From assembly GCF_003991565.1 (NCBI RefSeq), contig NZ_CP032819.1, positions 1,116,001-1,180,000 of the forward strand: a stretch of DNA of 64,000 bases, in the 5' to 3' direction. This document shows, piece after piece, positions 10,810-39,297 of this stretch. Each line of letters begins with the position of its first letter. Positions within the stretch are counted from its first letter, which is position 1. The stretch comes from Butyricimonas faecalis (GTDB lineage: Bacteria; Bacteroidota; Bacteroidia; Bacteroidales; Marinifilaceae). A model generated the notes under the pieces. It was not told where the DNA came from. It saw only the letters and a list, made by a program, of their open reading frames with translations, and did not search any database. Position numbers and translations under genes: made by a program.

Positions 10810-10865
10810 CATGGAGAAAACTACCGGCTTTCAACAACCAAAATCTAAAATCAAAAAACTAACAC

Positions 10866-12143: not shown

Positions 12144-12161
12144 GAGGTTTATGCTTGAATA

Positions 12162-21125: not shown

Positions 21126-22121
21126 ATGAAACAATTTACACGCAATACTATAAAAATGCTATGCCTAGGGATCATTTTAGGCGCAAGCAGCATCCTATCA
21201 TCCGTGGCACAAACGACCGTGAACGAAAATGAAAAACTAATCCCATTCGGGGACTTTAATCGCTGGATGGTTCGCGTCATTGACGAATCGTTTGTTATTG
21301 GCGGTAACACGAAAATCCTCTACGAGGTTGCCCCGGTGGACACGATTCGAGGTGACAAGCCCTATATCGGTTCCACGGTCTCCCCGTGGAGAACTTCCAA
21401 CGTGATGGCAAAAGTCAGCGGAATCACGAAATGCAGTATCTCCGTTTTCCCGGAGAAAAGAGACGACGGTTATTGCGTGCGTGTTGAAACACTCATGGAG
21501 AAATGCAAAGTGCTGGGGATCGTGAACATCACCGTCCTTGTACCGGGCACCATTTACCTGGGACAAATGCACGAACCCATCAAGGACACGAAAAACCCGC
21601 AAAGTAAACTGAATGCCGGGATTCCTTTCACGGAAACCCCGAAAGCCGTCGTGTTCGACTACAAGATGGAAACTCCCGGAACGGATCACCGGATCAAAGC
21701 AACCGGATTCAGCAAAATTGTTGACGTACCGGGACGGGATTCCGCCGAAATATATGTAATCTTTCAAAAACGCTGGGAGGACGAGAACGGCAACGTGTAT
21801 GCCAAACGTATCGGCACGGCCATCGAACGCCTTTCGGAGAACACGCCCGACTGGAAAAACGGTCACCGGCTGGATGTGATTTACGGGAACCCGGCCAACC
21901 AACCCGGCTACAAATCCTACATGCAATTAATCCCTAAAGAACAATCCCTGTACTGCATCAACAGCAAAGGTAAATCCGTACCCGTGGAAGAGATCGGTTG
22001 GGGGGATGCCGATGACAAACCCACGCATCTATTCTTACGTGTATCTTCCAGTTACGGGGAAGCTTACATCGGCACGGTTGGAAATAAACTTTGGATAGAC
22101 AACGTTCGGTTGGCCTATTAA
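21126..22121 (+). CDS. PCMD domain-containing exported protein
   Basis: A 331-residue protein with a signal peptide (cleavage likely after SSVAQ). The body resembles the PCMD (putative carbohydrate metabolism domain) fold of Bacteroidetes: an N-terminal block with WRTSNVMAKVSG, FPEKRDDGYCVRVET and GTIYLGQM, and a C-terminal jelly-roll ending in FLRVSSSYGEAYIG followed by LWIDNVRL. Such proteins occur in glycan-use loci, often at the surface. Here the gene is alone, with no SusC/D neighbours. Function unknown. Confidence 0.7.
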   Translation: MKQFTRNTIKMLCLGIILGASSILSSVAQTTVNENEKLIPFGDFNRWMVRVIDESFVIGGNTKILYEVAPVDTIRGDKPYIGSTVSPWRTSNVMAKVSGITKCSISVFPEKRDDGYCVRVETLMEKCKVLGIVNITVLVPGTIYLGQMHEPIKDTKNPQSKLNAGIPFTETPKAVVFDYKMETPGTDHRIKATGFSKIVDVPGRDSAEIYVIFQKRWEDENGNVYAKRIGTAIERLSENTPDWKNGHRLDVIYGNPANQPGYKSYMQLIPKEQSLYCINSKGKSVPVEEIGWGDADDKPTHLFLRVSSSYGEAYIGTVGNKLWIDNVRLAY

Positions 22122-22761
22122 AATAACTTTAACCGAGTTCCATCCCAAGTCTTACTGAATTAATACTAATTATTGTTACCAACTTCCTATCATATTCCCA
22201 TCACATTGCGAGCCGCTCCCATTCCGCTCCCATTCTCTTCCTATTCCCCTCCCATTACAATAGCAAAAAATAGACATTAATTAATATCTGGAATGATTCG
22301 GTTACATTTTTGATAGCAATATAATCACAAGATAATAGCTACCACTGATAGGAACTCCTATAAAACACCTTTTGACAGGAGTATTAATTGGATATATCCC
22401 ATAAAATAAATGGAAATGTAAATCGCCATAAAAGTTTTTTTCAAAAAAATCACTTTTTGTCTCCATCTAAATCCTGATGAGCGTGTTTCTTATATGAAAA
22501 TAGACGTGTGGCTGGATAAACGGTTGGAAAAGAAATAAACCAATACTTATTCATACAACAACAAATATTTAAATGACATCCTTCACCCTAACAAGTAGAT
22601 GAATTGTAATAGGTATAGGACAACTCATAATACTTATGAAGCATCCACAAGATAGGAGAAAGGAAATATAAAATTAGAGATACAAATCGTTGTATCCATA
22701 CAAACAAAAAAGAACGGTTTATGAAACCGGTAATTCAATTTAATAACTAAAATCAATTACA
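22122..22761 (+). promoter_or_regulatory. Long noncoding leader / promoter region of the RiPP operon
   Basis: This 640-bp gap has no credible ORF. It contains a GC-rich VNTR-like block (22178-22256) related to 47414-47488. It also contains a 41-bp AT-rich block (22426-22466, ccataaaag then a T run) strongly similar to 32751-32793 before the pilus operon. Two small hairpins precede the precursor: GATACAA/TTGTATC at 22679-22696 and CGGTTT/AAACCG at ~22714-22728. The promoter is probably in or near 22426-22466, but no clean TAnnTTTG was found. Confidence 0.45.
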
Positions 22762-23019
22762 ATGAAAGAAAATCAATTTGAAGTCATCGTTCCAGCTTAC
22801 GATGCATTAGAGTCGGAACTTGAAGACATTCTGGGAGGAGGGTGTTTGATACAAAGGTGTAATCCAAATATCGACTGTAAACCAAATTACGATAACGGCG
22901 GTGGTGATGGAAACTGTACCGAAGAGGGAAATATTCCTACTGATCAGAAACCGTGTTGTCCTGGATTAATAGCAGTCATCATTAAAGAGAGGAAAAGATG
23001 TTTTCCTGCAGCAATGTGA
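22762..23019 (+). CDS. RiPP precursor peptide, GG-leader, cysteine-rich
   Basis: An 85-residue peptide. Residues 1-27 form an acidic leader ending LESELEDILGGG, a typical double-glycine site for C39 peptidases; cleavage after Gly26 or Gly27 is equally compatible. The core of ~58 residues has seven cysteines (28, 33, 39, 52, 65, 66, 80) and is rich in Gly, Asn and Pro, with a basic C-terminal stretch (KERKRCFPAAM). It resembles GG-type natural-product precursors of Bacteroidales that sit beside radical SAM/SPASM maturases. It is followed by a strong hairpin and then the maturase gene. Confidence 0.85.
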   Translation: MKENQFEVIVPAYDALESELEDILGGGCLIQRCNPNIDCKPNYDNGGGDGNCTEEGNIPTDQKPCCPGLIAVIIKERKRCFPAAM

Positions 23020-23030
23020 TTTTAATCTAT

Positions 23031-23062
23031 TTGACTAAGGGTTATTACGAACCCTTAGTCAA
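23031..23062 (+). terminator. Intercistronic 13-bp hairpin between precursor and maturase
   Basis: TTGACTAAGGGTT (23031-23043) pairs perfectly with AACCCTTAGTCAA (23050-23062) around a 6-nt loop; GTTTTCCCC follows. It lies 11 bp after the precursor stop and 21 bp before the maturase ATG. It is well placed to act as a partial terminator or 3' stabiliser that yields more precursor than enzyme mRNA. Confidence 0.75.
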
Positions 23063-23082
23063 GTTTTCCCCAAAATATAACT

Positions 23083-24417
23083 ATGAAATGGTCAAAATAT
23101 AATTATATACTGAATTGTAAACATGGAGTCTTTGTTTATAACTCAACCACGAATTCATTTTTAAAAATAAGCAAGACCCTACTAGATTCCTTAAAAAATA
23201 TCAAGGACTGGGATTTAGAAATAGACGAACTAGATGAAGATATAAAAAAAATTCTAGTTGCGCATAACATTGTTGTTTCCAATGATTTTGACAACAAATA
23301 CCTAACTAAACTTAAGTTTATACACAGAAGATCAGCTTTTGCAAATTCTCAGCTCTCCCTCACAATCGCAACAACAACCGATTGTAATTTCAAGTGTCCA
23401 TATTGTTATGAAGAAGGAATCTCTCATACTAAAATGGATGAAGAAACGGAAACGGCAATAATTGATTATATCAATACAATAAAACCCAAGAGCTTATATA
23501 TCACATGGTATGGTGGAGAACCTTTAATGAATTTCAAAACCATAGAACGATTGATGAAGAATATAAATGAACTGAGTTATATTGAAGAAGTAAAATACGA
23601 TATGGTTACAAACGGTTCTTTATTGACAGAAAAGGTAGGTTCGTATTTTATCGAGAAAAAATTAAAGAATGTACAAATAACCATAGACGGACTTGAAGAA
23701 AATCATAATCGTACCAGAATAACAAAAAACGGTAAATCTTCCTATCGTATTATTCTAAGTAACCTTGATAAAGCTTTAGAAATACTTCCCGATTGTCATT
23801 TTTCTGTAAGAGTTAATATAGGCCTAAATAATAGAGCTGATTATCCTATTTTATATCGTGAACTTCGAGAGAAATATAAGGATAAAACGAACTTTTCAAT
23901 TTACTTTAGCTTTGTAGAAGATTATAGTATGTGTGGAGGTGCGAGTTGTCTCGATTCTAAAAAAAGAATAGATTTCTTACGCTACTTACAAGATGTACAT
24001 CATATTGCGGAAGAGGTATATCCAAAACATCGACAATGTTTATGTACCGCAACCTCTATTAATAGTTTTGTTATAGCCCCGAACGGAGATTTATATAAAT
24101 GCTGGAATGAAATCGGACGTAAAGATTATATTGTTGGGAATATCAAGAATAAAAAAATGATCTCTAATTATGATCTAATCTGTGACTATTCGATCAATTA
24201 TAATAAATTCAATGACCCAAAATGTCTAGCTTGCTTTTTACTACCGGTTTGTATCGGAGGTTGTCCGAGCAATAGAAATAGTAACCTAACGAGAAACACA
24301 AATCTCGAAATATGTCCTTATAATTTTGAACATATTGATCTTGCGTTGGAATTAATGTATGAAAGGGTATTAGCCACAACAAAAAAATACCTTTCAAAAC
24401 ACAATATTCAGTCATAA
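23083..24417 (+). CDS. Radical SAM/SPASM peptide maturase
   Basis: A 444-residue rSAM enzyme expected to modify the Cys-rich precursor. The first ~95 residues look like a small peptide-recognition (RRE-like) region. The rSAM core starts with TTDCNFKCPYCYEEG, with Cys101, Cys105 and Cys108 as the CX3CX2C cluster, followed by ITWYGGEPLMN. The C-terminal SPASM domain holds further cysteines in QCLCTATSINSF, LYKCWNE, CLACFLLPVCIGGCP and EICPYNF for auxiliary Fe-S clusters. Architecture matches the GG-Bacteroidales peptide maturase class; the bond formed (thioether, C-C or epimer) cannot be read from sequence. Confidence 0.92.
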   Translation: MKWSKYNYILNCKHGVFVYNSTTNSFLKISKTLLDSLKNIKDWDLEIDELDEDIKKILVAHNIVVSNDFDNKYLTKLKFIHRRSAFANSQLSLTIATTTDCNFKCPYCYEEGISHTKMDEETETAIIDYINTIKPKSLYITWYGGEPLMNFKTIERLMKNINELSYIEEVKYDMVTNGSLLTEKVGSYFIEKKLKNVQITIDGLEENHNRTRITKNGKSSYRIILSNLDKALEILPDCHFSVRVNIGLNNRADYPILYRELREKYKDKTNFSIYFSFVEDYSMCGGASCLDSKKRIDFLRYLQDVHHIAEEVYPKHRQCLCTATSINSFVIAPNGDLYKCWNEIGRKDYIVGNIKNKKMISNYDLICDYSINYNKFNDPKCLACFLLPVCIGGCPSNRNSNLTRNTNLEICPYNFEHIDLALELMYERVLATTKKYLSKHNIQS

Positions 24418-24451
24418 AATATATACACTATTCCCTACTAAAACCCCAAAA

Positions 24452-26761
24452 ATGAAAACACTCATATTCATATTTTTCCTATCGTTTCCTTGTATATTAT
24501 GGGGACAACAACCCAATCGGATAAAAGGTAGTCTAATAGATTCCTGTCATAATCCGGTGAAGGGAGCTTCAATCGTATTAATGAATCGGGCTGATTCCTC
24601 GCAAATCACATGGATGGTGTGTAAAGAAAACATTTTCGAATTGGAATACAAAGATACGGGGAAACCACTGCTGCTCCACGTGTCGGCTATTGGTTACGCG
24701 GGCAAATACATCAAAATAGATCCCACTCACCTTAACTTAGGCGAAATCGTGATGATGCCTTGGGCTTTGAACATTGATGAGGTGACGATTTCTGTAAAAA
24801 AGCCCATCGTTCATAACGTGGAACGCGGCAGGGATCAATACACGATTCCCGAATGGATGGGGCTGCAAGCTTATAACTTATCCTCGTTACTATCGCTTAT
24901 TCCGGGACTTATATTAAATAACGAAAATATTGAAATTGCCGGAATCGGTAAACCTATTTACATTCTTAACGGGACGAATCCTCGCATGGGAGAGTTGGAA
25001 AATCTCAATCCCAGAGACATCGAAAAAGTGACCATTGCCCGGATGCCTTCCAGTAAGTTCGGACCAAACGCCGTCGGAATTATTTATATCGAAACTAAAA
25101 AACAGTGGCATGACTATACGAGAATCCGCTTGAAAAACCAGTTTAAATACACGAACGTGACAAATAACCAATCGTCATTGTTTTTCAGTTACAAGAAAAA
25201 CAAACTATCCCATTACCTTGGCTATAGTTTTGATTACGACCCCGAAAAATATGATTTACGTTATGGCTATGAAACAAACATTCCTGAAGAAGATATTCAT
25301 TACAGTATGTTCACTTCAACTGACATGTATGAAAAGGGTAAAAATCACAATTTGACATACAGCACGAAATATCAAATCAATGCCAACAGCTTTGTTGACT
25401 TACTATATTACTTTAGCATGAAAAACATACTAGCCGATAATTTAGCCCATACTGATTTTTTTGATGAAGATCAACCGGACCTTTCAAGTCATACTCTTAC
25501 AGATATGAAATACAAACTACATTTGGCCAACATCAGATATGACAACACGTTTGATGGAAAAGATCGATTGACTTTTTCCATAAGTTGCATGCTAGTAGAT
25601 GACAAGCGGGATGAAGCCCTCAAGGAAGAAGCACTACAAACAGAAAGTACCCGTATGGCCTATAACCAAGCGTACAAAAATAAGGATGTGGGACTTTCAC
25701 TCGACTACACGCACACCTTTGAAGGGTTAGATATTGAAACCGGAGTATCTTACGGTAAACTTTGGACTCAAAGCGATATGAATTATTATACCGAAAATAA
25801 CTCACAAAAGAGCACGAGTCGTACCGAAAATACAACAGCCTATCTGAACATCGATCATGCTATTGGTAAATTTCATTACCAAATCGGATTGCGAGGTGAA
25901 TACGAATACCGTCACGCAGAAAATGACAGTTATAAAAAGAATCACTCGTTTTATTTTTTGCCCTCAGCGGGAATGTCATATCGAGTCAATGATGACTTGA
26001 ATTTCATGTTGTATTATCGTAGAATCACGACTCAACCAACCGAAAGGCAATTAAACACGAACGTGTCATACATGAATAGCTATCTATACTTTACCGGTAA
26101 CCCGTTATTAAAACCCACCGTGTCTCATACCTTCATGACCCGTTGGGCTTTCCCTTGTCATTTATCGCTGACATGCAATTATTCCTATGATAAAAACAGT
26201 ATATTTCAACTCACCGTGAACGACAAGGATGACCCGAATATTCTTGTCGATACTTACGAGAATCTGAAAAAATCGCAAGAATTAAACCTGACCCTCGCCT
26301 GGGATCGGACATTCCGGTTTTATTATCTCAATCTAAATGCCAGTTATTCTCAATCGTTTGCCAAAGTACCGTTTGTTAATCAAGAAGTCAAGTATAGTAA
26401 ACCGGCGTATTCGTTCTACGCAATGCATTCCATTACCCTGTACGAGGATATCAAATTAAACATTCTAGGTAGTTACACAACTACCCGTGAATATGCCACT
26501 ACCTATTCCAAAGAGAGTTATTCAGCGAGTGTTCAACTTCAAATGCTACTACTGAAAAAGCGATTGAACGTGTTGATAGCAGGAAATAGTCTGTTAAATG
26601 CGGGTAACATATATCAAGAGACCAGGTATAAACACACACTAATGATTAACAAGAGCAACTTCCATCGTTGCGGTATCACTATTGGAATCACCTACAATTT
26701 TAACAACTATATAGACGAGGAAAAAAGAAAAGAATCGGAAATAATTAAAAGAGCACTATAA
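24452..26761 (+). CDS. Outer-membrane beta-barrel (TonB-receptor-like) protein, RiPP operon copy 1
   Basis: A 769-residue outer-membrane protein. After a signal peptide ending near ILWGQ comes a carboxypeptidase-regulatory-like domain (~residues 20-105). A plug-like region (~110-215, LSSLLSLIPGLILN.. and IYILNG) follows, then a large barrel of the OMP_b-brl_3 type. It starts 34 bp after the maturase gene, and the next gene, a close paralogue, starts 2 bp after its stop. In this context it may be the outer-membrane exit for the peptide, a receptor for its re-uptake, or an immunity factor. None can be chosen from sequence alone. Confidence 0.85.
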   Translation: MKTLIFIFFLSFPCILWGQQPNRIKGSLIDSCHNPVKGASIVLMNRADSSQITWMVCKENIFELEYKDTGKPLLLHVSAIGYAGKYIKIDPTHLNLGEIVMMPWALNIDEVTISVKKPIVHNVERGRDQYTIPEWMGLQAYNLSSLLSLIPGLILNNENIEIAGIGKPIYILNGTNPRMGELENLNPRDIEKVTIARMPSSKFGPNAVGIIYIETKKQWHDYTRIRLKNQFKYTNVTNNQSSLFFSYKKNKLSHYLGYSFDYDPEKYDLRYGYETNIPEEDIHYSMFTSTDMYEKGKNHNLTYSTKYQINANSFVDLLYYFSMKNILADNLAHTDFFDEDQPDLSSHTLTDMKYKLHLANIRYDNTFDGKDRLTFSISCMLVDDKRDEALKEEALQTESTRMAYNQAYKNKDVGLSLDYTHTFEGLDIETGVSYGKLWTQSDMNYYTENNSQKSTSRTENTTAYLNIDHAIGKFHYQIGLRGEYEYRHAENDSYKKNHSFYFLPSAGMSYRVNDDLNFMLYYRRITTQPTERQLNTNVSYMNSYLYFTGNPLLKPTVSHTFMTRWAFPCHLSLTCNYSYDKNSIFQLTVNDKDDPNILVDTYENLKKSQELNLTLAWDRTFRFYYLNLNASYSQSFAKVPFVNQEVKYSKPAYSFYAMHSITLYEDIKLNILGSYTTTREYATTYSKESYSASVQLQMLLLKKRLNVLIAGNSLLNAGNIYQETRYKHTLMINKSNFHRCGITIGITYNFNNYIDEEKRKESEIIKRAL

Positions 26762-26763
26762 AA

Positions 26764-29073
26764 ATGAAATCACTCATATCAATATTTTTTCTGTTATTCC
26801 CTTGTATTCTATGGGGACAACAATCCAATCGGATAAAAGGTAGTCTGGTAGATACCTGTCATAATCCAGTGAAGGATGCTTCAATCGTATTAATGAATCA
26901 AGCTGATTCCTCGCAGATCACATGGATAGTATGTAAAGAGCACATGTTTGAATTGAAATACAAAGATACGGGAAAACCACTGCTGCTCCACGTGTCGGCT
27001 ATTGGTTACGCGGGCAAATACATCAAGATAGATCCCACTCACCTCGACTTAGGCGAAATCGTGATGAAACCTTGGACTCTGAACATTGACGAGGTGACAG
27101 TTTCTGTAAAAAAGCCCATCGTTCATAAAGTGGAACGCGGCAGGGATCAATACATGATTCCCGAATGGATGGGGATGCAAGCTTATGACTTATCCTCGTT
27201 ACTGGCACTTGTTCCAGGACTTATATTAAAAAATGATGACATCGAAATAGCCGGTATAGGTAAACCTGTTTACATTCTTAACGGATTGAATCCTCAGATG
27301 GGTGAGTTGGAAAGTTTAAATCCCAGAGATATCGAAAAAGTGACCATTGCCCGGATGCCTTCCGGCAAATTTGGACCGACTGCTGTTGGAATTATTTATA
27401 TTGAAACGAAAAAACAGTGGTTTGACTATATGAGAGTCCGCTTGAAAAACCAATTTAAATACACGAATGTAACAAATAACGAATCATCACTATCTTGCAA
27501 TTACAAGAAAAACAAACTATCCCATTATGTCGGCTACAGTTTTAGTTACGAACCATTAAAATATGATTTACGTTATGGCTATGAAACAATCATCCCGGAA
27601 GAAGATATTCATTACAATATGTCTACTTCAACAGACATGTATGAGAAAAACAAAAAACATCGTTTTATATACAGCACGAAATACCAAATTAATACTAGCA
27701 GTTTTGTCGATTTACAATATTATTTTAGCATGGAAAATATATTAGCTAATAATTTGGTTTATACTGCTTTTTTCAATGAAGATCAACCTGACCTTTCAAG
27801 TCGTACTCTTACAGATATGAAAGGCCATCAACATTTGGCTAACATCAGATATGATAATATGTTTGACGAAAGAAAACGATTGACTTTTTCCATCGGTTGC
27901 TTGTTAATCGACGATAAACGGGATGAAGAACTTAAGGAAGAAGTACAACAACCAGAAAGTACTCACATGGCCTATCGCCAAGCTTACAAGAACAAGGTGT
28001 TGAGTTCTTCCTTGGATTACACGCATGCTTTCGGAGAATTAGAAATCGAGACAGGAGTATCCTACGGTAAACTTTGGACCTGGAGTAAAATGGACTATGA
28101 TACCGGAGAAAACACGCCAGAAAGCACGAGCCGCAACGAAAGTGCGACAGTCTATCTAAATCTCGACCATGCTATCGGTAAATTTCATTACCAAATCGGG
28201 TTACGAGGCGAGTACGAATACCGACACGAGGAAAACGAAAACTACAAGAAAAAGCATTCATTTTATTTTTTGCCCTCTGCGGGAATGTCATATCGAGTCG
28301 ATGATGACTTGAACTTCATGCTGTATTATTATAGAACGACCACACAGCCAAGCGTAAAAGAATTAAACACGAACGTGTCATACATGAATAAATACGTCTA
28401 CTTCACGGGGAACCCGTTATTAAAACCGACCGTGTCTCATTCCTTCATGACCCGCTGGGTCTTTCCTTACCATTTATCACTTACCTGCAATTATTCCTAC
28501 AATAAAAACGGTATTTTCCAACTCACTGTAAACGATAAAGACGACCCGAATATCCTTGTTAATACTTACGAGAATCTAAAGAAATCGCAAGGGTTAAGTC
28601 TGACCCTCGCCTGGGACCGGACGTTCCGGTTTTATTATCTCAACTTGAATGCCGGTTATTTTCAATCGTTTGCCAAAGTACCGTTTGTGGATCAAAAAGT
28701 CAAGTACAGTAAACCGGGGTATTCGTTCTACGCGATGAATTCTATTACCCTGTACGAGGATATCAAATTAAACATCATAGGTAATTACACTACCGCTTGT
28801 GAGTCTGTCACAAGTTATTCGGAAGAAGCTTATTCTGCAACCGTTCAACTTCAAATGTTGTTATTGAAGAAGCGATTGAACGTGTTGATAGCAGGGAATA
28901 GCCTGCTAAACTCTGGTGCCCAATATCAAGAGAGTAGATATAAACACACGCTATCCATTGATAACAGCAACTTTCACCCTCGCGGTATTACAATCGGAGT
29001 CACCTACAATTTTAACAACTATATAGATAAGGAAAAAAGGGAAGAATCGGAAATAATCAAAAGAGCATTATAA
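26764..29073 (+). CDS. Outer-membrane beta-barrel (TonB-receptor-like) protein, RiPP operon copy 2
   Basis: A 769-residue paralogue of the preceding protein with exactly the same length and roughly 80 percent identity by eye, arisen by tandem duplication. Differences cluster in the barrel strands and loops (for example around residues 270-330 and 440-480), while the N-terminal domain and C-terminal strands are nearly identical. The gap to the previous stop is 2 bp and to the transporter gene 3 bp, indicating translational coupling. Retention of both copies suggests partner diversification, such as forming a heteromer or handling different peptide variants. Confidence 0.85.
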   Translation: MKSLISIFFLLFPCILWGQQSNRIKGSLVDTCHNPVKDASIVLMNQADSSQITWIVCKEHMFELKYKDTGKPLLLHVSAIGYAGKYIKIDPTHLDLGEIVMKPWTLNIDEVTVSVKKPIVHKVERGRDQYMIPEWMGMQAYDLSSLLALVPGLILKNDDIEIAGIGKPVYILNGLNPQMGELESLNPRDIEKVTIARMPSGKFGPTAVGIIYIETKKQWFDYMRVRLKNQFKYTNVTNNESSLSCNYKKNKLSHYVGYSFSYEPLKYDLRYGYETIIPEEDIHYNMSTSTDMYEKNKKHRFIYSTKYQINTSSFVDLQYYFSMENILANNLVYTAFFNEDQPDLSSRTLTDMKGHQHLANIRYDNMFDERKRLTFSIGCLLIDDKRDEELKEEVQQPESTHMAYRQAYKNKVLSSSLDYTHAFGELEIETGVSYGKLWTWSKMDYDTGENTPESTSRNESATVYLNLDHAIGKFHYQIGLRGEYEYRHEENENYKKKHSFYFLPSAGMSYRVDDDLNFMLYYYRTTTQPSVKELNTNVSYMNKYVYFTGNPLLKPTVSHSFMTRWVFPYHLSLTCNYSYNKNGIFQLTVNDKDDPNILVNTYENLKKSQGLSLTLAWDRTFRFYYLNLNAGYFQSFAKVPFVDQKVKYSKPGYSFYAMNSITLYEDIKLNIIGNYTTACESVTSYSEEAYSATVQLQMLLLKKRLNVLIAGNSLLNSGAQYQESRYKHTLSIDNSNFHPRGITIGVTYNFNNYIDKEKREESEIIKRAL

Positions 29074-29076
29074 ACA

Positions 29077-31287
29077 ATGACGACGAGAAGGATTCCATCG
29101 GTTTTACAGCATGACGCCATGGATTGCGGGGTGGCTTGCATATCCATGATATGCGAGTGGTACGGCATTTACGCACCTATCCCCGATCTAAAAAAGAGTT
29201 GTGTGCCCACGAAAGAAGGTGTTTCACTGAAACGCATTTCCACCACGCTGGAAGAATTAGGATTCAATGTCGTGGGTGGTCGTGCTACCACTAAATTACT
29301 CGTTGAAAAAGCTGTTCTACCGGTGATTCTTCATTGGAGCCAAAACCATTTTGTCGTTCTCTTCAAAATTACCAACAAGCATAGGAAATACGTCTTTCAT
29401 GTATCGGATCCCGCAGTTGGTGTAATAACGTACACGCAAGAAGAGTTCGAGAAAAAATGGATCAGTACCCGGACTCATGATGAAGATAAAGGGATCGCTC
29501 TATTCATCTATAACAACCAAAATGTATGGGGTAAACAATCATTCCAGAAATCAACAAAAAAATACAGGCCCGCAGTGGTACAACTGATGCCTTATTTCGG
29601 CAGGTACAAATATTTCTTCCTGCTGTTAGTATGCGGTTATATCATTATAAGCTTGCTTCAATTAATCCTGCCATACCTGACACAATCCATCGTAGACGTG
29701 GGTATTGCAAACAAAGACCTAAGTATTATCACACTCATACTTATCGCACAACTCATGCTGTTGATCGGGGCTACCTCCGTGAGGATGGTGAATAATTGGA
29801 TAACCCTCCATATCAGCACGCGAGTGAGTATCTCGTTAATATCCGATTTTCTCATACGGCTGGTAAAATCACCCATGGAATTCTTTGATCACAAAAAAAT
29901 AGGTGATACCGTGCAACGGATCGGAGACCACGACCGGATAGAAAATTTTATAACGACACAATCCCTATCTCTTCTTTATTCCATAATCACGTTGGTCGTG
30001 TTCAGCATCGTGATGCTTACCTACAACGTGAAGATATTCATTGTCTTTCTGGCGTTCAGTACCGTGTATTTCGTCTGGCTCCTGATTTTCATGAAAAAGA
30101 GGAAGGTACTGGATTACAAATTCTTCGGGATCAGTTCCGCAAGCCAAGGTGCTACATATCAATTAATCAGTGGCATACAAGAGGCAAAACTACAGAACAA
30201 TACCCAGGAACAACGTTGGAAATGGGAGGATATACGCGTAGACCTGTTCGATGCCAATATCGAACAACTCAAACTGTCGCAAAAGCAACAAATAGGAAGT
30301 ACATTCATAAATGAATCAAAAAATATAGTAATAACCATTATTGCCGCTTCACTAGTCATAAACGGAAGCATCACGTTAGGTATGATGCTGGCCATACAAT
30401 ACATTATCGGACAATTATCCGTACCCGTGATACAAATCGCAAATTATATCTATAATATTCAAGATGTCAAGATCAGCCTGGAACGTATCAACGAGATAAA
30501 AAATCAAAAAGATGAAAATGCAGACCGGCACAATTCACTAAACATCACCGATAATTCGATTAAAATAAAAAATCTTTCTTTCAGATATGAGGGCTCTAGC
30601 GTAGACGTGCTTAAAAACATAAACCTGACCGTTGACAACAATGAAACTGTCGCAATCGTGGGAAGTAGCGGGAGTGGTAAAACCACGTTATTAAAACTGA
30701 TTCTTCAATATTACCTTCCTCAAAACGGGTGTATTGAAATGGGAGGTACTGATTTGCGGGATGTTAACGTTCAATCTCTCTGGGACCGGTGCGGGGTTGT
30801 CATGCAGGACGGGTACATTTTTTCAGACACGATAGCCAAGAATATTGCGACCTCCACGGATGAAATAGATCTTTCCCGGTTAAAATACGCGGCCGACATG
30901 GCAAGATTGTCCCCTTTTATCGAATCGCTACCCTTGAAATACAATACCATTGTAGGCGATGATGGACGAAGTCTTAGTAGCGGGCAAAGGCAAAGATTAT
31001 TAATAGCCCGAGCTATTTACAAAAATGCAGATTTCCTTTTTTTTGACGAGGCGACTAACGCACTAGACGCAACGAATGAAAAATTCATTCTACAAAATAT
31101 TAATCAATTCATTCATAATAAAACGGCTCTAATTATCGCCCACCGTCTTAGTACGGTAAAACATGCTGACAAAATTGTCGTGCTGGAAGACGGCTATGTT
31201 GCGGAATCCGGTACTCATGATGAACTAATTAGTAATAAAAGCTATTATTACAACCTCGTAAAAAATCAACTTGAATTGAATAATTAA
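29077..31287 (+). CDS. Peptidase-containing ABC transporter (C39, PCAT) exporting the peptide
   Basis: A 736-residue inner-membrane protein that should cleave the GG leader and export the core. The N-terminal C39 domain has oxyanion Gln11, catalytic Cys17 (DAMDCGVACISM), His91 (HWSQNHFVVL) and Asp111 (VSDPAVG). A transmembrane domain with about six helices follows (residues ~160-450). The C-terminal ATPase has Walker A GSSGSGKTT, signature LSSGQRQRLLIARAI, Walker B FLFFDEATNALD and H-loop IIAHRLSTV. All catalytic residues look intact. No dedicated HlyD with a full periplasmic domain or TolC is encoded nearby. Confidence 0.95.
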   Translation: MTTRRIPSVLQHDAMDCGVACISMICEWYGIYAPIPDLKKSCVPTKEGVSLKRISTTLEELGFNVVGGRATTKLLVEKAVLPVILHWSQNHFVVLFKITNKHRKYVFHVSDPAVGVITYTQEEFEKKWISTRTHDEDKGIALFIYNNQNVWGKQSFQKSTKKYRPAVVQLMPYFGRYKYFFLLLVCGYIIISLLQLILPYLTQSIVDVGIANKDLSIITLILIAQLMLLIGATSVRMVNNWITLHISTRVSISLISDFLIRLVKSPMEFFDHKKIGDTVQRIGDHDRIENFITTQSLSLLYSIITLVVFSIVMLTYNVKIFIVFLAFSTVYFVWLLIFMKKRKVLDYKFFGISSASQGATYQLISGIQEAKLQNNTQEQRWKWEDIRVDLFDANIEQLKLSQKQQIGSTFINESKNIVITIIAASLVINGSITLGMMLAIQYIIGQLSVPVIQIANYIYNIQDVKISLERINEIKNQKDENADRHNSLNITDNSIKIKNLSFRYEGSSVDVLKNINLTVDNNETVAIVGSSGSGKTTLLKLILQYYLPQNGCIEMGGTDLRDVNVQSLWDRCGVVMQDGYIFSDTIAKNIATSTDEIDLSRLKYAADMARLSPFIESLPLKYNTIVGDDGRSLSSGQRQRLLIARAIYKNADFLFFDEATNALDATNEKFILQNINQFIHNKTALIIAHRLSTVKHADKIVVLEDGYVAESGTHDELISNKSYYYNLVKNQLELNN

Positions 31288-31292
31288 GTACC

Positions 31293-31481
31293 ATGCAAAA
31301 AGAAAACATTGAATTAAGAAGTCCCAAAGTACAAAACGTTATCGGAAAAATGCCACGACGTTTAGTTCTTTCAGCAATATTGATCTACGTCATTGTGTTT
31401 CTGTTAGTTCTACTTGTCATATATTTCCTTGATTTAGAAAGTGCAAACATATTATCACGCTTGTTAAAACAGATCGTATGA
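31293..31481 (+). CDS. Small membrane protein resembling only the N-terminus of HlyD adaptors
   Basis: A 62-residue protein with a 22-residue membrane segment (LSAILIYVIVFLLVLLVIYF). The preceding motif IELRSPKVQNVIGKMPRRLV resembles the opening of Bacteroidetes HlyD-family secretion proteins (ELRSxxVQxxxGxxPxWxxRxG), but the protein ends ~20 residues after the helix. There is no coiled-coil or lipoyl domain. It starts 5 bp after the transporter and overlaps the VKOR gene by 4 bp (ATGA), so it is a coupled operon gene and not an accidental fragment. It may be a minimal transporter accessory subunit. Confidence 0.7.
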   Translation: MQKENIELRSPKVQNVIGKMPRRLVLSAILIYVIVFLLVLLVIYFLDLESANILSRLLKQIV

Positions 31482-32695
31482 GAACTTCCAAGGACACGAA
31501 AATCAACAACAAGATCGAACTATTCATGCTCAAAGCCCTGGGGTATATCGTGCTATTACTAATCCTCTATAAAACTATTATAGTTTTTAGTCAGGAAAAT
31601 CTAATACTCGTTCTCTACTGCATACTGTACGGTAGCGGTTTATTTTTTAGCATACTTCTTCTTCTTGAAACGTACGGTTTTCAATTCAAGATAATAAACA
31701 GGTTTTGCAGTAATAAATCCGGATCAAACGGTTGTTCTCCCGTGGTTCTATCCAAGGGAGCAACCATTATCGGAGAAATATCATGGAGTGATATAGGCAT
31801 CGTGTATTTTTTGTCCATGTATATCATATCCCTCCTGTTTTCTTATGAAAGCAATAACCTTGCATTGATTATTTCTTCTTTTATCGCTTTCCCGTATACC
31901 ATTTTTTCCGTGTATTACCAATGGAAAATCGCTAAATCATGGTGTAGAATGTGTTTGATGGTTCAATTCATACTGATTGTATTATTTATTTTGTCCATAA
32001 TCGTTTTATCGGGACATAATCATACCTATAAGTTAACTGATTTATTCTCCATGACAATTGTCGTGTTATTGACTGTGACAACTTACTTCTCGGCAAAATA
32101 TATATTGAAAACATTCATTAGCAAAAAAGCAACTGTTGAACAATATAGATTATTTAAATTCGAAAACTTGAAGCATACTCTTTTCCTATTCGAACCACTA
32201 GAGCCTATTGAAGAAGTGGCAAGTGTTATCTACAACAAAACAGCACCTGATAAAATTACCATCATATTTCGATTTGATTGTACACCTTGTTTATATCATT
32301 TAGAAGAGATTATTGAAACAATACATGCAAAAATGGATATAGCAATTGAATTTGTCTTCATTTCGTGGCGAACAACCCTGAGAAAAGATTTACCCATGAT
32401 ATTGCACTTCACAATGTTATATCTTATTAATCCCAATAAATTCCTTGATGAATTATCCCAATATATTTCAGACTATCCTCAAATTGATAAATATTTATCC
32501 CCCACCCCGGAGATTGACGAGCGAGCTAAAACCATAATTAAATCACACGTCGCCTGGGGTGCTAAAAACAAAATAAACCAGACACCAACTTATTTAATTA
32601 ACAACAGAATGGTTAATCATCATTATAAGTTTAACGAATTGGTAAGTATTTTAGAGGCAAATATGATAGAACGAAAAACAAATTCCCTACTCTAG
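31478..32695 (+). CDS. Vitamin K epoxide reductase (VKOR) - thioredoxin-like fusion
   Basis: A 405-residue inner-membrane protein. Residues ~20-215 form a multi-helix VKOR domain with loop cysteines Cys77 and Cys86 (CSNKSGSNGCSPVVLS) and the quinone-proximal pair Cys156/Cys159 (WCRMC). The C-terminal domain (~255-400) is thioredoxin-like, with Cys268/Cys271 (FDCTPCLYH). Together these would pass electrons from periplasmic thiols to quinone, acting as a disulfide-forming machine like DsbA/DsbB in one chain. As the last gene of the RiPP operon, it most likely oxidises cysteines of the exported peptide. Confidence 0.87.
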   Translation: MRTSKDTKINNKIELFMLKALGYIVLLLILYKTIIVFSQENLILVLYCILYGSGLFFSILLLLETYGFQFKIINRFCSNKSGSNGCSPVVLSKGATIIGEISWSDIGIVYFLSMYIISLLFSYESNNLALIISSFIAFPYTIFSVYYQWKIAKSWCRMCLMVQFILIVLFILSIIVLSGHNHTYKLTDLFSMTIVVLLTVTTYFSAKYILKTFISKKATVEQYRLFKFENLKHTLFLFEPLEPIEEVASVIYNKTAPDKITIIFRFDCTPCLYHLEEIIETIHAKMDIAIEFVFISWRTTLRKDLPMILHFTMLYLINPNKFLDELSQYISDYPQIDKYLSPTPEIDERAKTIIKSHVAWGAKNKINQTPTYLINNRMVNHHYKFNELVSILEANMIERKTNSLL

Positions 32696-32853
32696 CAAGA
32701 CAAAAGTTTTTTTACACATTTCTCTATCTATTTTAGGTTGAGATTTTATTTCCATAAGAGTTTTTTTGTTAAAAATCACTATTTTTGCACCATAAAAGAA
32801 ATATTTGAAACCAGCCAAAGGTAGACTCTGCGGCCTATCCTAGCAATAGGAGA
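32696..32853 (+). promoter_or_regulatory. Promoter region of the pilus operon
   Basis: TATTTTTG at 32780-32787 is an exact minus-7 match, embedded in a block (32751-32793) very similar to one upstream of the RiPP precursor. A small hairpin with a GCAA tetraloop (TCCTA/TAGGA, ~32838-32851) lies in the predicted leader. A canonical minus-33 is not visible. Confidence 0.5.
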
Positions 32854-32892
32854 ATGCCTCTTATCTTCATGGCTAATTTTAAACAAATAATT

Positions 32893-34116
32893 ATGATAAA
32901 TTATTTTACAATAAGGATTAGATTACTGGTCGCGATACTCGCTGCGACTCTTCCTCTTTCCGTCGCGAAAGCGGATGGTAACGATAAAGTGAAGTCAAAT
33001 TCGCAAGGTTGGTATGTCGGCATCAAAGGCGGAGTGCCCTTCGGCTTCTCTACGTTTTCAAGTTTTGGACACGATAAAACACGTCTTGGTTGGGCTGCCG
33101 GTATATATGGAGGCTACCGTTTCAATCCGATATTCTCGGCAGAGCTGTCCGCCAAATATGGAAAGATGAGTTTGTCGGCACACGACTGCTGCGTGGAGCA
33201 AAACTATTGGTTGGGTTCCAATGGCGTATTATACAAGGCCGGAGTCTTGGGCATGGATAGTTGGGAATATTCCAATCTGAAAAGCCATGTCACCCTGGGA
33301 GAATATGGTGCCAGTGTGAATGTCAATCTCTTGGGATTATTCGCAAACACAGCCAATAGCCGTTGGGAAGTAGCCGTGTCCCCTCATATATCCGCGGTGA
33401 CAACGAAAGCTGATATGCAGACCATAGCCGACGGTGCGGACGTGATGAAAGGCTCCACCAACTGGCATTTCGGTTACGGGGCAGATTTGCAGGTTGGCTA
33501 CCAACTGAACTCATTTCTGAAAGTCGGTGTTTATTCCGGATGGACAGGTCTCACGGGAAGTCGAATGGATGGAATGCCCAAACATCTGCATAAGAATAAC
33601 TTCGTTTGGGAAAGTGGTATCAGGTTAGGCTTCAATCTATCAAAAAAGAAAAAGAACAAGGTCATAGAGGTCGCTCCAACTCCACAAACCGAGATTCAAC
33701 AAAAGGAGGAAAGTCCCAAGGAGAATACAATCCAACCGGAGCCCGTAAGCAAAGCGGAAGCGAAGGTCACGACACAAGACACGGTTGAGCAGACAAAGGT
33801 CACCTTCCCTAACATATATTTCTCATTCAACAGCATAGACATCAGAAAGAGTGAAGAAGTAAAGCTGAACGAAATTCTAAACACGTTGAAAACAAACCCG
33901 GAGGTAAAGGTTACGGTGACAGGTTGGTGTGATACCCAAGGCGACGTTGCTGTCAACAAACGTGTATCCAAACAGCGTGCAGAGGCGGTAAAGGCTTGGC
34001 TTGTGAAGAAAGGCATTGAAGCAAGTCGCATCCAGACCGTGGGTAAGGGAAGCGATGATACTCAAAACGCGGAAAATGCTCGCCGAGTGGAGACAACAGA
34101 TAATCGTAATCAGTAA
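32893..34116 (+). CDS. OmpA-family protein (beta-barrel plus peptidoglycan-binding domain)
   Basis: I prefer the ATG at 32893, which gives a 407-residue product with a clean signal peptide (IRIRLLVAILAATLPLSVAKA); an upstream in-frame ATG at 32854 adds 13 residues. An eight-strand-like barrel (WYVGIKGGVPFGFS to WESGIRLGFNLS) is followed by a charged linker. A C-terminal OmpA domain then follows, with IYFSFNSIDIRKSE, VTVTGWCDTQGDVAVNKRVSKQRA and GIEASRIQTVGKG. It would anchor the outer membrane to peptidoglycan. In Bacteroidales such a gene commonly heads a FimB/Mfa2-fimbrillin operon, as here (18 bp gap). Confidence 0.9.
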   Translation: MINYFTIRIRLLVAILAATLPLSVAKADGNDKVKSNSQGWYVGIKGGVPFGFSTFSSFGHDKTRLGWAAGIYGGYRFNPIFSAELSAKYGKMSLSAHDCCVEQNYWLGSNGVLYKAGVLGMDSWEYSNLKSHVTLGEYGASVNVNLLGLFANTANSRWEVAVSPHISAVTTKADMQTIADGADVMKGSTNWHFGYGADLQVGYQLNSFLKVGVYSGWTGLTGSRMDGMPKHLHKNNFVWESGIRLGFNLSKKKKNKVIEVAPTPQTEIQQKEESPKENTIQPEPVSKAEAKVTTQDTVEQTKVTFPNIYFSFNSIDIRKSEEVKLNEILNTLKTNPEVKVTVTGWCDTQGDVAVNKRVSKQRAEAVKAWLVKKGIEASRIQTVGKGSDDTQNAENARRVETTDNRNQ

Positions 34117-34134
34117 GCCATAAAACAAGATAAA

Positions 34135-35031
34135 ATGAAAGCAAAAAGTAAATGTAATATTTGGTTCTGGGTACTGCTATGCGTCCCATGCCTATTGACA
34201 AGTTGCGAGCATGAGGTCCATGATGGCAAGGAAGAGGGAGGATTGTCCGTGTCACTCACTTGGCAAGACAAGACCGACCAGGGTACGGAAGTAAAGGATG
34301 TGAAACTCTGGCTATTCAACGCCGACGATAGTTTGCTCGTGGAAGAGATGCATTATGGCAGTGCCGAAGAGGTGGCAAACCAACGTTTCCAACTCCCGGA
34401 AGGCAACTATCGTATCTTGGCAACAATCAACCTCACGGAGCCTTTCTTTATCAACGAGGCGACAAGGGCCTTGGCTGATTGGAACAATATCATGATCGGG
34501 CTGACCCATCCGAAGGATGTGAAGGAGAATGCCTATTTCGGAGTGACCGATGTGAGGATAGATACCAAGGAAGGGAACTACGTGGTACAGAATCCGATAA
34601 AGAGCGTGCTTGCCGAGCTGACCATCATTATCGAAAATGTACCGAAGGGAACGGAGATGAGTGGCAAGGCATTGGATGCAGCCCAATGCCTGTTCCCCAC
34701 GCGGAAGGATGGCGACGGTGACTATGGCTTGCCGGGCACGGATCTCGTGGAAGTGAAACTCCCTACCATCTTGGCCACGGAGAACACCCTGCAATCGGAA
34801 GTCATTCGACTCATGCCGACAACGCCGATTAGTGCAGCTTCTCATATCTATCTCCGCCTTCTGCTCCCGAACGAGGTGGTGCAAGAGTATGACATCACCG
34901 CTCCCGCGATGAAGGCAGGAGGCAAGTATGAGTTACGGTTCAAGCACAACGAGATGCAGCCTAAGATGAATCTTGATGCAACCATCAATAATTGGAAAGA
35001 CCTCAACAAAGACGAAGTAGAAATAAAATAA
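34135..35031 (+). CDS. FimB/Mfa2 family fimbrial anchor subunit (lipoprotein)
   Basis: A 298-residue predicted lipoprotein (lipobox LLTSC, Cys24). The body matches the FimB/Mfa2 family: an N-terminal beta domain with VKDVKLWLFNADDSLL and LPEGNYRILATINL, then a second domain ending RFKHNEMQPKMNLDATINNW. These proteins cap the base of type V pili and anchor them in the outer membrane. It lies between the OmpA-like gene and the first fimbrillin. Confidence 0.85.
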   Translation: MKAKSKCNIWFWVLLCVPCLLTSCEHEVHDGKEEGGLSVSLTWQDKTDQGTEVKDVKLWLFNADDSLLVEEMHYGSAEEVANQRFQLPEGNYRILATINLTEPFFINEATRALADWNNIMIGLTHPKDVKENAYFGVTDVRIDTKEGNYVVQNPIKSVLAELTIIIENVPKGTEMSGKALDAAQCLFPTRKDGDGDYGLPGTDLVEVKLPTILATENTLQSEVIRLMPTTPISAASHIYLRLLLPNEVVQEYDITAPAMKAGGKYELRFKHNEMQPKMNLDATINNWKDLNKDEVEIK

Positions 35032-35056
35032 CAATAACTTTTAAAATGTTTGTAAT

Positions 35057-35947
35057 ATGAAAAAGATAGTAACGTTTTTCGCCCTTGCACTCTTGGCTGG
35101 TGTAATGGTATCATGTAACAACGAAAACTCGCCGATGGCACAGGATGAAAAGGTAGCCGTACAGTTTACTGGCGGCATTAACGTAAGCACTCGTGCTGCT
35201 GGAGTAGCTTGGGCTGATGGTGACAAGATTGGTATTTTCATGACAGCAGCGAAAGAGACCCTTTCTGCCAATAGTATCAAAGAAGGCGTTGACAATGTGG
35301 CTTACGAGACAAACGGAGGTATTTCTTTCTCACCGATTTCAGGTGGTAAGACCATTTACTACCCCATTGATGGAGACGTGGATTTCTATGCTTACTATCC
35401 ACAAACTACAGTCAATGACTACAAGGTGGCACTCAATGTAGCTGACCAAAGCAAGCAGGAAGCTATCGACTTCATGTATGCCAAAACTACCGGGTGCAAC
35501 AAAGCCATTCCACAAGTAGAATTGAAGTTCTCCCACCAGTTGAGTTGGTTAGTACTGAATGTTCAAGCCGGGAACGGTTTGACTGAAGATGATCTGGAAA
35601 ATTTGAAGGTCACCATTGAAGACCAAAACACAACAGCTACATTCAATCTTGTTGATGGTACGATCTCGGATGAAGGAAATCCTAACAACATCACGATGAA
35701 GACGGTTGAGGCCGGTAAAGTATACGAGGCCATCCTGCTTCCAACAACATCGAAGACCAGAAAGATCGTGTTCGATCTTAACACTGGATATGACGCTCCT
35801 TTTGTTTGGACCATGGAGTCCGACCTTAAGGGAGGTAACAGATACAACTATACCACGGTGAAGCTGACGCGAACCAGCGTGGATATTATGGGTACCATCG
35901 AAAGTTGGAACGAGGTGAAGAATATCAATGAAAATGTCGCGTTATAA
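35057..35947 (+). CDS. Fimbrillin family lipoprotein 1 (probable major pilin)
   Basis: A 296-residue protein with lipobox VMVSC (Cys20) and the Mfa-like/fimbrillin layout: a ~46-residue prosegment ending in ..INVSTRAAG, then WADGDKIGIFM, ..YYPIDGDVDFYAYYP and KFSHQLSWLVLNV. Arg46 is at the place where type V pilins are cut by an arginine-specific protease before strand-exchange polymerisation. The C-terminus contains DIMGTIESWNE, the donor-strand-like end. Second subunit gene after the anchor, hence probably the shaft pilin. Confidence 0.87.
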   Translation: MKKIVTFFALALLAGVMVSCNNENSPMAQDEKVAVQFTGGINVSTRAAGVAWADGDKIGIFMTAAKETLSANSIKEGVDNVAYETNGGISFSPISGGKTIYYPIDGDVDFYAYYPQTTVNDYKVALNVADQSKQEAIDFMYAKTTGCNKAIPQVELKFSHQLSWLVLNVQAGNGLTEDDLENLKVTIEDQNTTATFNLVDGTISDEGNPNNITMKTVEAGKVYEAILLPTTSKTRKIVFDLNTGYDAPFVWTMESDLKGGNRYNYTTVKLTRTSVDIMGTIESWNEVKNINENVAL

Positions 35948-35967
35948 TAACTTCAAAATACGACCAC

Positions 35968-36912
35968 ATGAAGGCTATTAAATTCTTATACATCGCTGCA
36001 ACAGCATTGCTGTTTGCAGCTTGCGCTAACGAGGACGATGGGATGGGCAACCGTCCCGTTGCCGCTACCGTACGAGCGGACATATTTAATAGTGTAAATA
36101 CTCGTGCAACTGTAAATAATACATGGACTGCCAACGAAGATGCTATTGGCGTGTATGTTACCTCCACAGGTTACACGAAAGGGGATAACGTGAAATATGT
36201 AGTTTCCGACCAAGCAGGCAATTTCACACCTGCAGACAACCCCATTTATTTCGCCGATAAGGATGAAACCTCTTTTAGCGCATATTACCCTTATTGTAGC
36301 TCTAACGACACACGTGTAAACCAGGATGGGACAATAAATTGGCAAGGTGGTGTTGTGAAAGACGGAAAATGTCAATGGGATTTTCTTTTTGCCCATGGTG
36401 CAACTGCCCGGCAATCGTCTCCCATAGTACATTTTTCAGGTAACAACGCGTTCAAGCATTGCATGGCAATGGTAAAATTCATTATCAAAGCAGGCGATTT
36501 CGTTACCCCAAACGAGACTTTACTTAATGGTGATTTTATCTTGGACGGGGTGAACAACGAGGGAATCGTAAATCCGAAAACTGGCGAGGCTATAGCAAAC
36601 GCTACAACAAAGACTAAACTATCAGAGCCGATGAATCAAAGTCTGGCTGACGACATAACGATCAGTTTCATTTTGCTTCCCCAGTCTTTGCAAAGCGATA
36701 GTTTGAGTGTAAGCCTCAAGGTATCAGCAAATGGCACGACAAATACCTGTTCAACACCTTTGACTTTACCCGCGGACGGTAAATTTAATGGTGGAAATAT
36801 GTACACCTACACCCTTTTTGTTTCCAATACAAAGATAGAGATCGAAAATTCATCAATAATCCAATGGGGGAAGAGGGATTTTGGTGACTTAGATGTTGAT
36901 GTAGAACCATAA
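35968..36912 (+). CDS. Fimbrillin family lipoprotein 2
   Basis: A 314-residue fimbrillin with lipobox LFAAC (Cys19), a prosegment ending NSVNTRATV (Arg46), then TANEDAIGVYV, PIYFADKDETSFSAYYPY and FKHCMAMVKFIIKAGD. The C-terminal strand is IIQWGKRDFGDLDVDV. The gene follows fimbrillin 1 by 20 bp. Divergence from fimbrillin 1 suggests an accessory or alternative subunit. Confidence 0.85.
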   Translation: MKAIKFLYIAATALLFAACANEDDGMGNRPVAATVRADIFNSVNTRATVNNTWTANEDAIGVYVTSTGYTKGDNVKYVVSDQAGNFTPADNPIYFADKDETSFSAYYPYCSSNDTRVNQDGTINWQGGVVKDGKCQWDFLFAHGATARQSSPIVHFSGNNAFKHCMAMVKFIIKAGDFVTPNETLLNGDFILDGVNNEGIVNPKTGEAIANATTKTKLSEPMNQSLADDITISFILLPQSLQSDSLSVSLKVSANGTTNTCSTPLTLPADGKFNGGNMYTYTLFVSNTKIEIENSSIIQWGKRDFGDLDVDVEP

Positions 36913-36978
36913 ATATAGTCCAAGTACAATAGGAATATCGGGTTCGTGAGTCCGGTCGCTCACCAACAACAAAAATAG

Positions 36979-37866: not shown

Positions 37867-37881
37867 CAAGAGGATAGAACT

Positions 37882-39207: not shown

Positions 39208-39297
39208 GATAGAGAACAATAACATCACTTTTACAATCCATTTTAGGGTGGGAACAAAAAATAAGACGGACAATTCTAAGTATTCCGGAAATTTGAG

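Follow-up and report, generated by a model that had tools for sequence, protein, structure and literature searches.

The window analysed here is a stretch of 64,000 nucleotides from Butyricimonas faecalis (contig NZ_CP032819.1, positions 1,116,001 to 1,180,000 of the forward strand). At positions 22762-32695, on its plus strand, it carries an operon of seven co-oriented genes, all present as open reading frames (ORFs) with gaps of 63, 34, 2, 3, 5 and -4 bp, as an initial annotation had described. In order, the genes encode an 85-aa precursor with a double-glycine (GG) leader, a 444-aa radical S-adenosylmethionine (rSAM)/SPASM enzyme, two 769-aa barrels, a 736-aa C39 peptidase-containing ATP-binding cassette (ABC) exporter (PCAT), a 62-aa HlyD-like stub, and a 405-aa fusion of VKOR and thioredoxin (Trx). 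The operon (G+C content 0.372, compared to 0.439 for the window) is real, coherent, and rare in the genomes sampled. Its peptide is probably a ribosomally synthesized and post-translationally modified peptide (RiPP) with a GG leader and a C39 exporter.

22762..22839 (+): precursor leader, residues 1-26, ending in ELEDILGG (pairwise identity, 16 rows)
22840..23016 (+): precursor core, 59 residues (sequence; cysteine spacing in 16 rows)
23029..23064 (+): 15-bp hairpin between the precursor and maturase genes (folding compared with shuffles)
23083..24417 (+): radical SAM/SPASM peptide maturase, 444 aa (PF04055, 59 bits; NCBIfam and PDB profile matches)
24452..26761 (+): barrel 1, TonB-receptor-like, with N-terminal domain and plug (PF14905, 179.9 bits; model; Foldseek)
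26764..29073 (+): barrel 2, tandem duplicate of barrel 1 (PF14905, 178.8 bits; 81% identity)
29077..31287 (+): PCAT, C39 peptidase and ABC exporter, 736 aa (PF03412, PF00664, PF00005)
31293..31481 (+): reduced HlyD/membrane fusion protein (MFP), 62 aa (leave-one-out hidden Markov model (HMM), E 6.6e-16)
31478..32695 (+): VKOR-thioredoxin fusion, 405 aa (PF07884, 45.7 bits; 4-bp overlap with the end of the stub gene)

Components of the operon

A protein search with the precursor (E <= 1) returned 15 homologous protein clusters, the weakest at 2.5e-7. The alignment comprises 16 rows including the window, to which cluster P0121 is nearly identical. Mean pairwise identity is 0.918 in the leader vs 0.391 in the core; the small ORF is a real gene, because its almost invariant leader is common to all 15 clusters. 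Leaders of this type follow the rule ELxxIxGG. The window leader fits, with a variable core behind it, and cleavage is therefore expected after G25-G26, giving a core of 59 residues in place of the 57-58 given earlier. The core has seven cysteines, arranged as an N-terminal cluster (C28, C33, C39) and a C-terminal module (C52-X12-C65-C66-X13-C80). The latter varies least: 15 of the 16 rows share the CX12CC spacing (P0135 is one residue longer), and the last cysteine is likewise present in 15 (P0123 lacks it). The N-terminal cysteines range from three down to none. Seven cysteines are found in 12 of the 16 rows, which lends moderate support to the earlier argument that an odd number leaves at least one cysteine for a thioether or free thiol; the other rows have 6, 6, 5 and 4. 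An AlphaFold model of the precursor has a mean confidence score (pLDDT) of 59, with 65-77 for the block of residues 51-85 and 42-57 for residues 1-50, and its best part, residues 51-80, contains a predicted hairpin. Fold matching was dropped, as the mean score is too low, and a relationship between the precursor profile and solved knottin-type structures was rejected (best E 1.4, non-significant).

The hairpin at 23029-23064 (-20.8 kcal/mol, z -6.5; none of 200 shuffles as good) is a probable attenuator that would yield more precursor than enzyme. No stable hairpin was found 3' of the VKOR gene (z -0.2). Bacteroides-type promoters gave four matches in the window vs 3.17 expected, none of them directly before the operon, and sigma-70 matches are at chance level (41 vs 41.8 expected).

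The maturase contains the rSAM core motif CNFKCPYC (residues 101-108) as well as cysteines 321, 340, 381, 384, 390, 394 and 411, invariant in 22 rows, which we take to be the SPASM pattern; its assignment as an rSAM/SPASM enzyme is borne out. It lies above the cut-off of the broad SPASM domain model TIGR04085 (59.3 vs 27 bits). The best NCBIfam match is TIGR04334 (Clo7bot, 214.5 bits, cut-off 600); PapB (NF047865, 139.3 bits, cut-off 340) and SCIFF (TIGR03974, 113 bits, cut-off 425) also fall below their cut-offs, and an equivalog cut-off is reached by none of the best 25 of the 68 families that match. To our knowledge, the CteB/SCIFF system has no VKOR, barrels or Gram-negative export. By profile, the best solved relative of the window maturase is 5wgg (E 2.1e-32), identified as CteB, a thioether-forming ranthipeptide maturase, in PMC10352776 (Fernandez-Cantos 2023; all papers are cited here from excerpts). 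Thioether chemistry is likely because of this relationship, and the maturase would accordingly install one or more thioethers. Those of PapB link cysteine to aspartate or glutamate (PMC9413430).

The VKOR domain of the last gene is above the cut-off of PF07884, and the Trx domain scores 20.6 bits vs a Pfam cut-off of 23.2. C77, C86, C156, C159, C268, C271 and P370 show no variation across 11 aligned rows with identities as low as 22%. We take these positions to be the loop cysteine pair and CxxC of VKOR and the CxxC (here CxPC) and cis-proline of Trx, in agreement with the fusion annotated previously. Among the best 7998 candidates, those most similar (40-100% identity) are metagenome-derived proteins and the next are 24-29% identical; in the latter group, P0146, P0148 and P0151 combine C39, VKOR and Trx Pfam domains in one protein. 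A VKOR match was found in 12 of 56 genomes of the family, own genome included. Of 13 foreign VKOR places, 11 lie within open frames of 525-605 aa, and all ten such frames that were scanned contain both C39 and VKOR (C39 above the Pfam cut-off in seven, below it in three). GG-leader cysteine peptides are encoded directly downstream of C39-VKOR-Trx in nine of the 13 fetched neighbourhoods (L138-L146), so that a VKOR serving such peptides has a parallel in the family. L139-L146 have between one and 11 of these small peptides, L146 having 11 at 9492-12183 (reversed orientation), and apparently represent a separate, disulfide-only peptide system within the same bacterial family. None of the 13 neighbourhoods has an rSAM close to that of the window; L148 has one 31-bit rSAM. 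The VKOR-Trx of the window would oxidise the operon's own peptide.

Both barrels match PF14905, and a barrel profile search finds SusC homologues. The model of barrel 1 (15-row alignment, pLDDT 82.2) consists of an N-terminal domain, a plug and a large barrel, that is, the fold of a TonB-dependent transporter, and its top Foldseek matches are TonB-dependent receptors (best E 3.4e-20, TM score 0.51 by query). A low-confidence linker (residues 110-115) lies beside the stretch NIDEVTISVKKP, which was considered as a putative TonB box. We note that the two barrels are present as annotated, yet not as two different proteins: they form a tandem duplicate, 81% identical over a gapless alignment, with identity lowest in residues 351-450 (0.72 and 0.68 per 50). 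Nonsynonymous divergence (dN) is 0.10 vs a synonymous divergence (dS) of 0.67, which suggests purifying selection on both copies.

The exporter comprises C39 peptidase (PF03412, 101.4 bits), ABC membrane and ATPase domains, as expected from its annotation. The motifs DCG at 16, NHFVV at 90 and DPA at 111 presumably mark the C39 cysteine, histidine and aspartate, and residues 7-729 align to 4ry2, an 'ABC-type bacteriocin transporter'. The 62-aa stub consists of a cytoplasmic motif, ELRSxKVxNxIGKxP, and one hydrophobic segment, and then ends; the periplasmic domain is absent. Its HlyD-like character was recovered by an HMM built from the N-termini of 17 other adaptors, including three stubs and excluding the window, for which the stub is the best of 394 window ORFs (E 6.6e-16, next best 0.69). 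An adaptor N-terminus has no match elsewhere in the own genome, where the other four matches span query residues 196-414 only. HlyD tails may help to recruit exporter and substrate. Excerpts of the review PMC8277102 did not settle this point.

Related loci and shortened adaptors

We examined 95 loci with relatives of the maturase (L002-L081 and L101-L115; L112 repeats L009). A C39/ABC exporter match lies downstream of the maturase relative in 28 of them, eight of which were left out, either because they end at the exporter (L003, L016, L063, L101, L115) or because the exporter match is weak (L032, L033, L040). In 15 of the remaining 20 loci a barrel is encoded between maturase and PCAT, and a short HlyD relative of 63-245 aa is found in 13 of these 15 (L004, L007, L008, L038, L102, L103, L104, L106, L107, L109, L110, L111, L114), or in 14 of 16 with the window. 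Barrel-less L036, L049 and L105 have full-length HlyD together with an S41 peptidase; the latter occupies the barrel's place in L115 as well, and full-length HlyD is found in the three of these four loci with complete flanks. In barrel-less L021 no adaptor was found. The association of barrel and short adaptor (Fisher p 0.016; 19 loci, window in, L014 and L021 out) serves as a guide only, the loci being related. L008 and L104 also have a second rSAM gene after the PCAT, followed by a protein of 686-730 aa, and the stub of L008 lies behind this second unit.

The window follows the order precursor, rSAM, PF14905-type barrel, PCAT, shortened HlyD, which is a wider Bacteroidales theme, partly described in PMC10352776. 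The initial annotation, which knew of no described system with this exact gene set, was overstated in so far as rSAM, barrel and C39 commonly occur together in Bacteroidales. From 25 of 30 loci we collected 34 candidate cores, selected for a GG-type motif and at least one cysteine (median 30 aa, 3 cysteines), and the CX12CC...C module is found in none of them. VKOR is absent from all 95 loci at E 1e-4, but many of these are short or only distantly related, and the more reliable count is zero among the 20 whose sequence extends 2.5 kb or more past the PCAT. A second barrel is likewise found in none of the 15 barrel loci (barrel profile, E 1e-8, 6 kb downstream). The 59-residue core with its C-terminal cysteine module, VKOR-Trx and the tandem barrels are subfamily-specific in this sample. 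The duplication of the barrels, the membership of the stub in a series of shortened adaptors, and the subfamily-specific cysteine module go beyond the initial annotation.

A tree of 25 exporters (the window, the 20 loci, L138, L145, L149 and L150) groups 16 rows in one branch at 100/98, consisting of 11 with a mid-length adaptor, four with a stub and one whose adaptor state is unassigned. The opposite side contains all five full-length cases as well as L014, L036, L145 and the short-adaptor locus L149; L036 is labelled 'none' in the tree, and the full-length HlyD found upstream fits its position. Short-adaptor PCATs, that of the window included, therefore fall mostly in one clade. The stub label requires at least three changes on the starred branches and is unclustered (all 500 shuffles as low). 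The simpler reading is that the adaptor was reduced repeatedly, although the number of changes also allows a single origin with reversals. The comparison suggests that shortened HlyD adaptors may be what the authors of PMC10352776 missed in clusters described as having 'no MFP'.

Proposed maturation route and its alternatives

We favour, with moderate confidence, a Bacteroidales-type RiPP operon (GG precursor, rSAM/SPASM, barrel, C39 exporter, shortened HlyD) that has gained VKOR-Trx and a second barrel and crosslinks its cysteines in two stages. The rSAM enzyme would recognise the nearly invariant leader and crosslink at least one of C28, C33 and C39 in the cytosol, most likely as a thioether. 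As is typical of its family, the PCAT would then cleave after G25-G26 and pump out the core. With nothing but the cytoplasmic tail and membrane segment left of the adaptor, a sealed conduit to TolC is not expected and the peptide would be released into the periplasm, where VKOR-Trx may oxidise the four-cysteine C-terminal module. Passage through the outer membrane would finally fall to one or both barrels, one of which may also serve in recognition or self-protection. As a peptide with a fast-changing core, the product would most likely act as an antibacterial or a signal. The N-terminal cysteines are assigned to rSAM and the C-terminal module to VKOR-Trx chiefly because this module and VKOR occur together in the window and in none of the other sampled loci. 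Since VKOR is absent from the rSAM loci and no rSAM close to that of the window was seen near C39-VKOR-Trx, the window looks like two peptide systems combined, namely the rSAM-barrel-PCAT line and the VKOR line. The initial annotation had already placed the rSAM modification inside the cell and the disulfides outside; this interpretation is partly supported, by the GG-leader operon with its own C39 exporter, 5wgg as nearest solved maturase relative by profile, the intact VKOR-Trx cysteines and the C39-VKOR-Trx parallel. A more far-reaching version, in which one cysteine module receives thioethers in the cytosol and a second receives disulfides in the periplasm, the periplasmic step being enabled by evolutionary loss of the HlyD conduit, and a TonB-receptor-like barrel exports the mature folded RiPP, is unlikely to hold as a whole.

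Several observations weigh against the proposed route. P0133 lacks the entire N-terminal cysteine cluster, and its rSAM must therefore act elsewhere or not at all. The linkage of VKOR and rSAM comes from one genome, the close homologues of VKOR and precursor being metagenome proteins free of context. The stub-bearing loci L008, L104 and L106 have no VKOR, from which it follows that the stub is independent of VKOR. A retained C-terminal helix in the stubs, scored by position weight against shuffles, is non-significant (fractions of shuffles scoring as high or higher: 0.09 for the window, 0.20 for L008, 0.09 for L106 and 0.68 for L104). The coupling of barrel and short adaptor is not strict: L014 has a barrel and no adaptor was found, L044 combines a barrel with full-length HlyD and an OEP/TolC-type protein, L108, whose rSAM gene carries a stop, has a short adaptor and no barrel, and the PCAT of L149, which has a short adaptor, lies outside the short-adaptor clade. 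Barrels of this fold are usually importers. Finally, what the locus itself displays is gene content, from which chemistry, barrel direction and bioactivity are deduced.

On the direction of the barrels the evidence is divided: export would fit the gene order and the missing conduit, and uptake would fit the fold. The barrels may be receptors that serve sensing, recycling or immunity by binding or re-importing a peptide, either that of the operon or that of a rival, with the outer membrane crossed by another route, for example through a TolC encoded elsewhere. Both fold and sequence resemble import receptors (SusC homologues, Cir, PfeA), duplicates with a dN/dS of ~0.15 and their lowest identity at residues 351-450 would fit diverging ligand surfaces, and no separate immunity gene was recognised in the operon, where no immunity-specific search was made. 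We nevertheless regard receptors as the less probable role, given that 15 of 20 loci have the barrel gene placed between those for maturase and exporter and that shortened adaptors, unable to reach TolC, accompany the barrel (the Fisher value above, from 19 related, non-independent loci). The rSAM enzyme, in turn, might leave cysteine alone, catalysing for example epimerisation or a C-C crosslink, with VKOR-Trx handling all cysteines as disulfides. Cyclophane-forming maturases are indeed among the lower-scoring NCBIfam matches and some family members have even cysteine numbers (4 and 6); the predominance of seven cysteines and CteB as best profile match make this quite unlikely. The cysteines in all 34 related cores point the same way, weakly, since selection required at least one.

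It is improbable that VKOR-Trx is a general periplasmic oxidase that came to stand at the operon end by chance and folds other proteins. Its gene is the last of the operon, the next one (32854) encodes an OmpA-domain surface protein, and the own genome has a single VKOR match at E 1e-5, all of which would suit a general oxidase; against this, the stub and VKOR genes overlap by 4 bp, homologues in the family adjoin GG peptides, and five sister species have no VKOR (E 1e-5), just as they have no maturase (E 1e-60). There is very little to be said for placing the operon in an already named precursor/maturase family, GG-Bacteroidales TIGR04149/TIGR04148 for example. The GG leader, Bacteroidales host and rSAM neighbour would be as expected, and P0128 reaches 8.4 bits with TIGR04149. 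The comparison with these families proposed in the initial annotation, however, left precursor and maturase below the curated cut-offs or without a match: TIGR04149 (cut-off 25 bits) does not match P0125, P0135 or the window precursor, for which no NCBIfam match appears even at E 10, and the maturase scores 74.2 bits with TIGR04148 vs a cut-off of 300. Both identities were rejected, as were other named families, whose scores are likewise below the cut-offs.

Genomic setting and known systems

The order and class genome sets are samples, and the motif scan of genome contigs used motifs common to many rSAMs and is not a census. At E <= 1e-60, and counting the own genome, 11 of the 393 order genomes have the maturase, as do 8 of the 56 family genomes, among them one of the 6 from the genus; at 1e-50 it is found in 2 of 395 genomes of the class. 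The precursor profile matches 2 of the 393 order genomes, the second one weakly (2.8e-4). DNA matching window positions 22123 and 39281 is spaced 1.05 kb in the sister genome G398 vs 17.2 kb here, and the operon and the block that follows it are therefore located on a variable locus. One further feature lies upstream of the operon:

22427..22503 (strand not assigned): ~75 bp with homology to the sequence immediately preceding another operon in two sister species (blastn)

This remnant is 87% identical to L157 and 90% to L158 (blastn), whose copies lie directly before an ORF starting MKRQIEETIKQAL and precede a different operon in G399 and G401; it may be the scar of a replaced locus. The variable locus (22121-39281) lies between a PCMD-domain gene and an IMPDH-like gene (assigned by eye), measuring 17 kb here and ~1 kb in G398 and holding another operon in G399 and G401. 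Sisters have an lgt-like gene (by eye) at this locus, for which the window gave no tblastn match. After the operon, at 32854-39207, the same island carries an OmpA-domain gene and then a run of fimbrillin-like lipoprotein genes (the latter by eye). Elsewhere in the window, two genes for 182-aa membrane proteins (13704-14252 and 17235-17783) lie 3.5 kb apart, their first 60 residues nearly alike. A plasmid origin was rejected, as a near-identity search gave no plasmid match, and so was a phage origin: 58 phage records match the maturase, all below 60% identity and the best 20 of the 58 at most 34.6%. Scans of viral contigs turned up a single weak rSAM (31%) and nothing related to VKOR.

Several known systems share parts of the operon. 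BGC6-8 of PMC10352776 likewise have rSAM, GG-leader precursor, C39 exporter and a gene for an outer-membrane protein (OMP). By description, they differ in having YcaO and, in BGC8, a precursor of 61 aa, and the window in its stub adaptor, doubled barrels and second core cysteine module. CteB/SCIFF maturation (5wgg) shares rSAM, SPASM and a cysteine-containing substrate and is the best profile match, at a SCIFF score far below the model's cut-off. SKF already combines the two bond types in a single peptide, with one rSAM thioether and one disulfide, and its operon has a putative thioredoxin, skfH (PMC8172795). By description, SKF differs as a head-to-tail cyclic 26-mer of Bacillus with export and resistance via SkfE/SkfF. 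The C39-VKOR-Trx loci L138-L146 have homologous VKOR and Trx parts (25-27% identity) and GG-leader cysteine peptides, but C39 is fused to VKOR, the cysteine pattern is another one, and rSAM of the window family is absent in the fetched stretches. Colicin V type export (PCAT, HlyD and TolC; PMC10352776) also relies on a C39 exporter and a HlyD-family adaptor, whereas the window adaptor lacks the whole periplasmic part and the operon has no TolC. PF14905/SusC barrels have already been linked to Bacteroidetes RiPP loci, namely graspetide loci with C39 export in which proteins related to TonB receptors are predicted export mediators (PMC8939145); their main enzyme, unlike here, is an ATP-grasp.

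A non-exhaustive literature search, with subscription papers mostly outside its reach, turned up no publication that links VKOR to an rSAM RiPP operon. PMC9716671 matches all search words in passages that, in the excerpts, are unrelated to this link, and the text of PMC10352776 as searched has no occurrence of VKOR, vitamin K or disulfide. What is new is VKOR-Trx with a matching cysteine module, the doubled barrel, and the recognition of the missing adaptor as a shrunken HlyD. The authors of PMC10352776 described Bacteroidales clusters of PCAT and OMP with 'no MFP' and asked how these move their product. We suggest that the MFP is present, reduced to 62-245 residues, in a PCAT clade mostly accompanied by TonB-receptor-like barrels. 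The operon itself would be a natural route to peptides that bear both thioether and disulfide bonds, made by separable enzymes.

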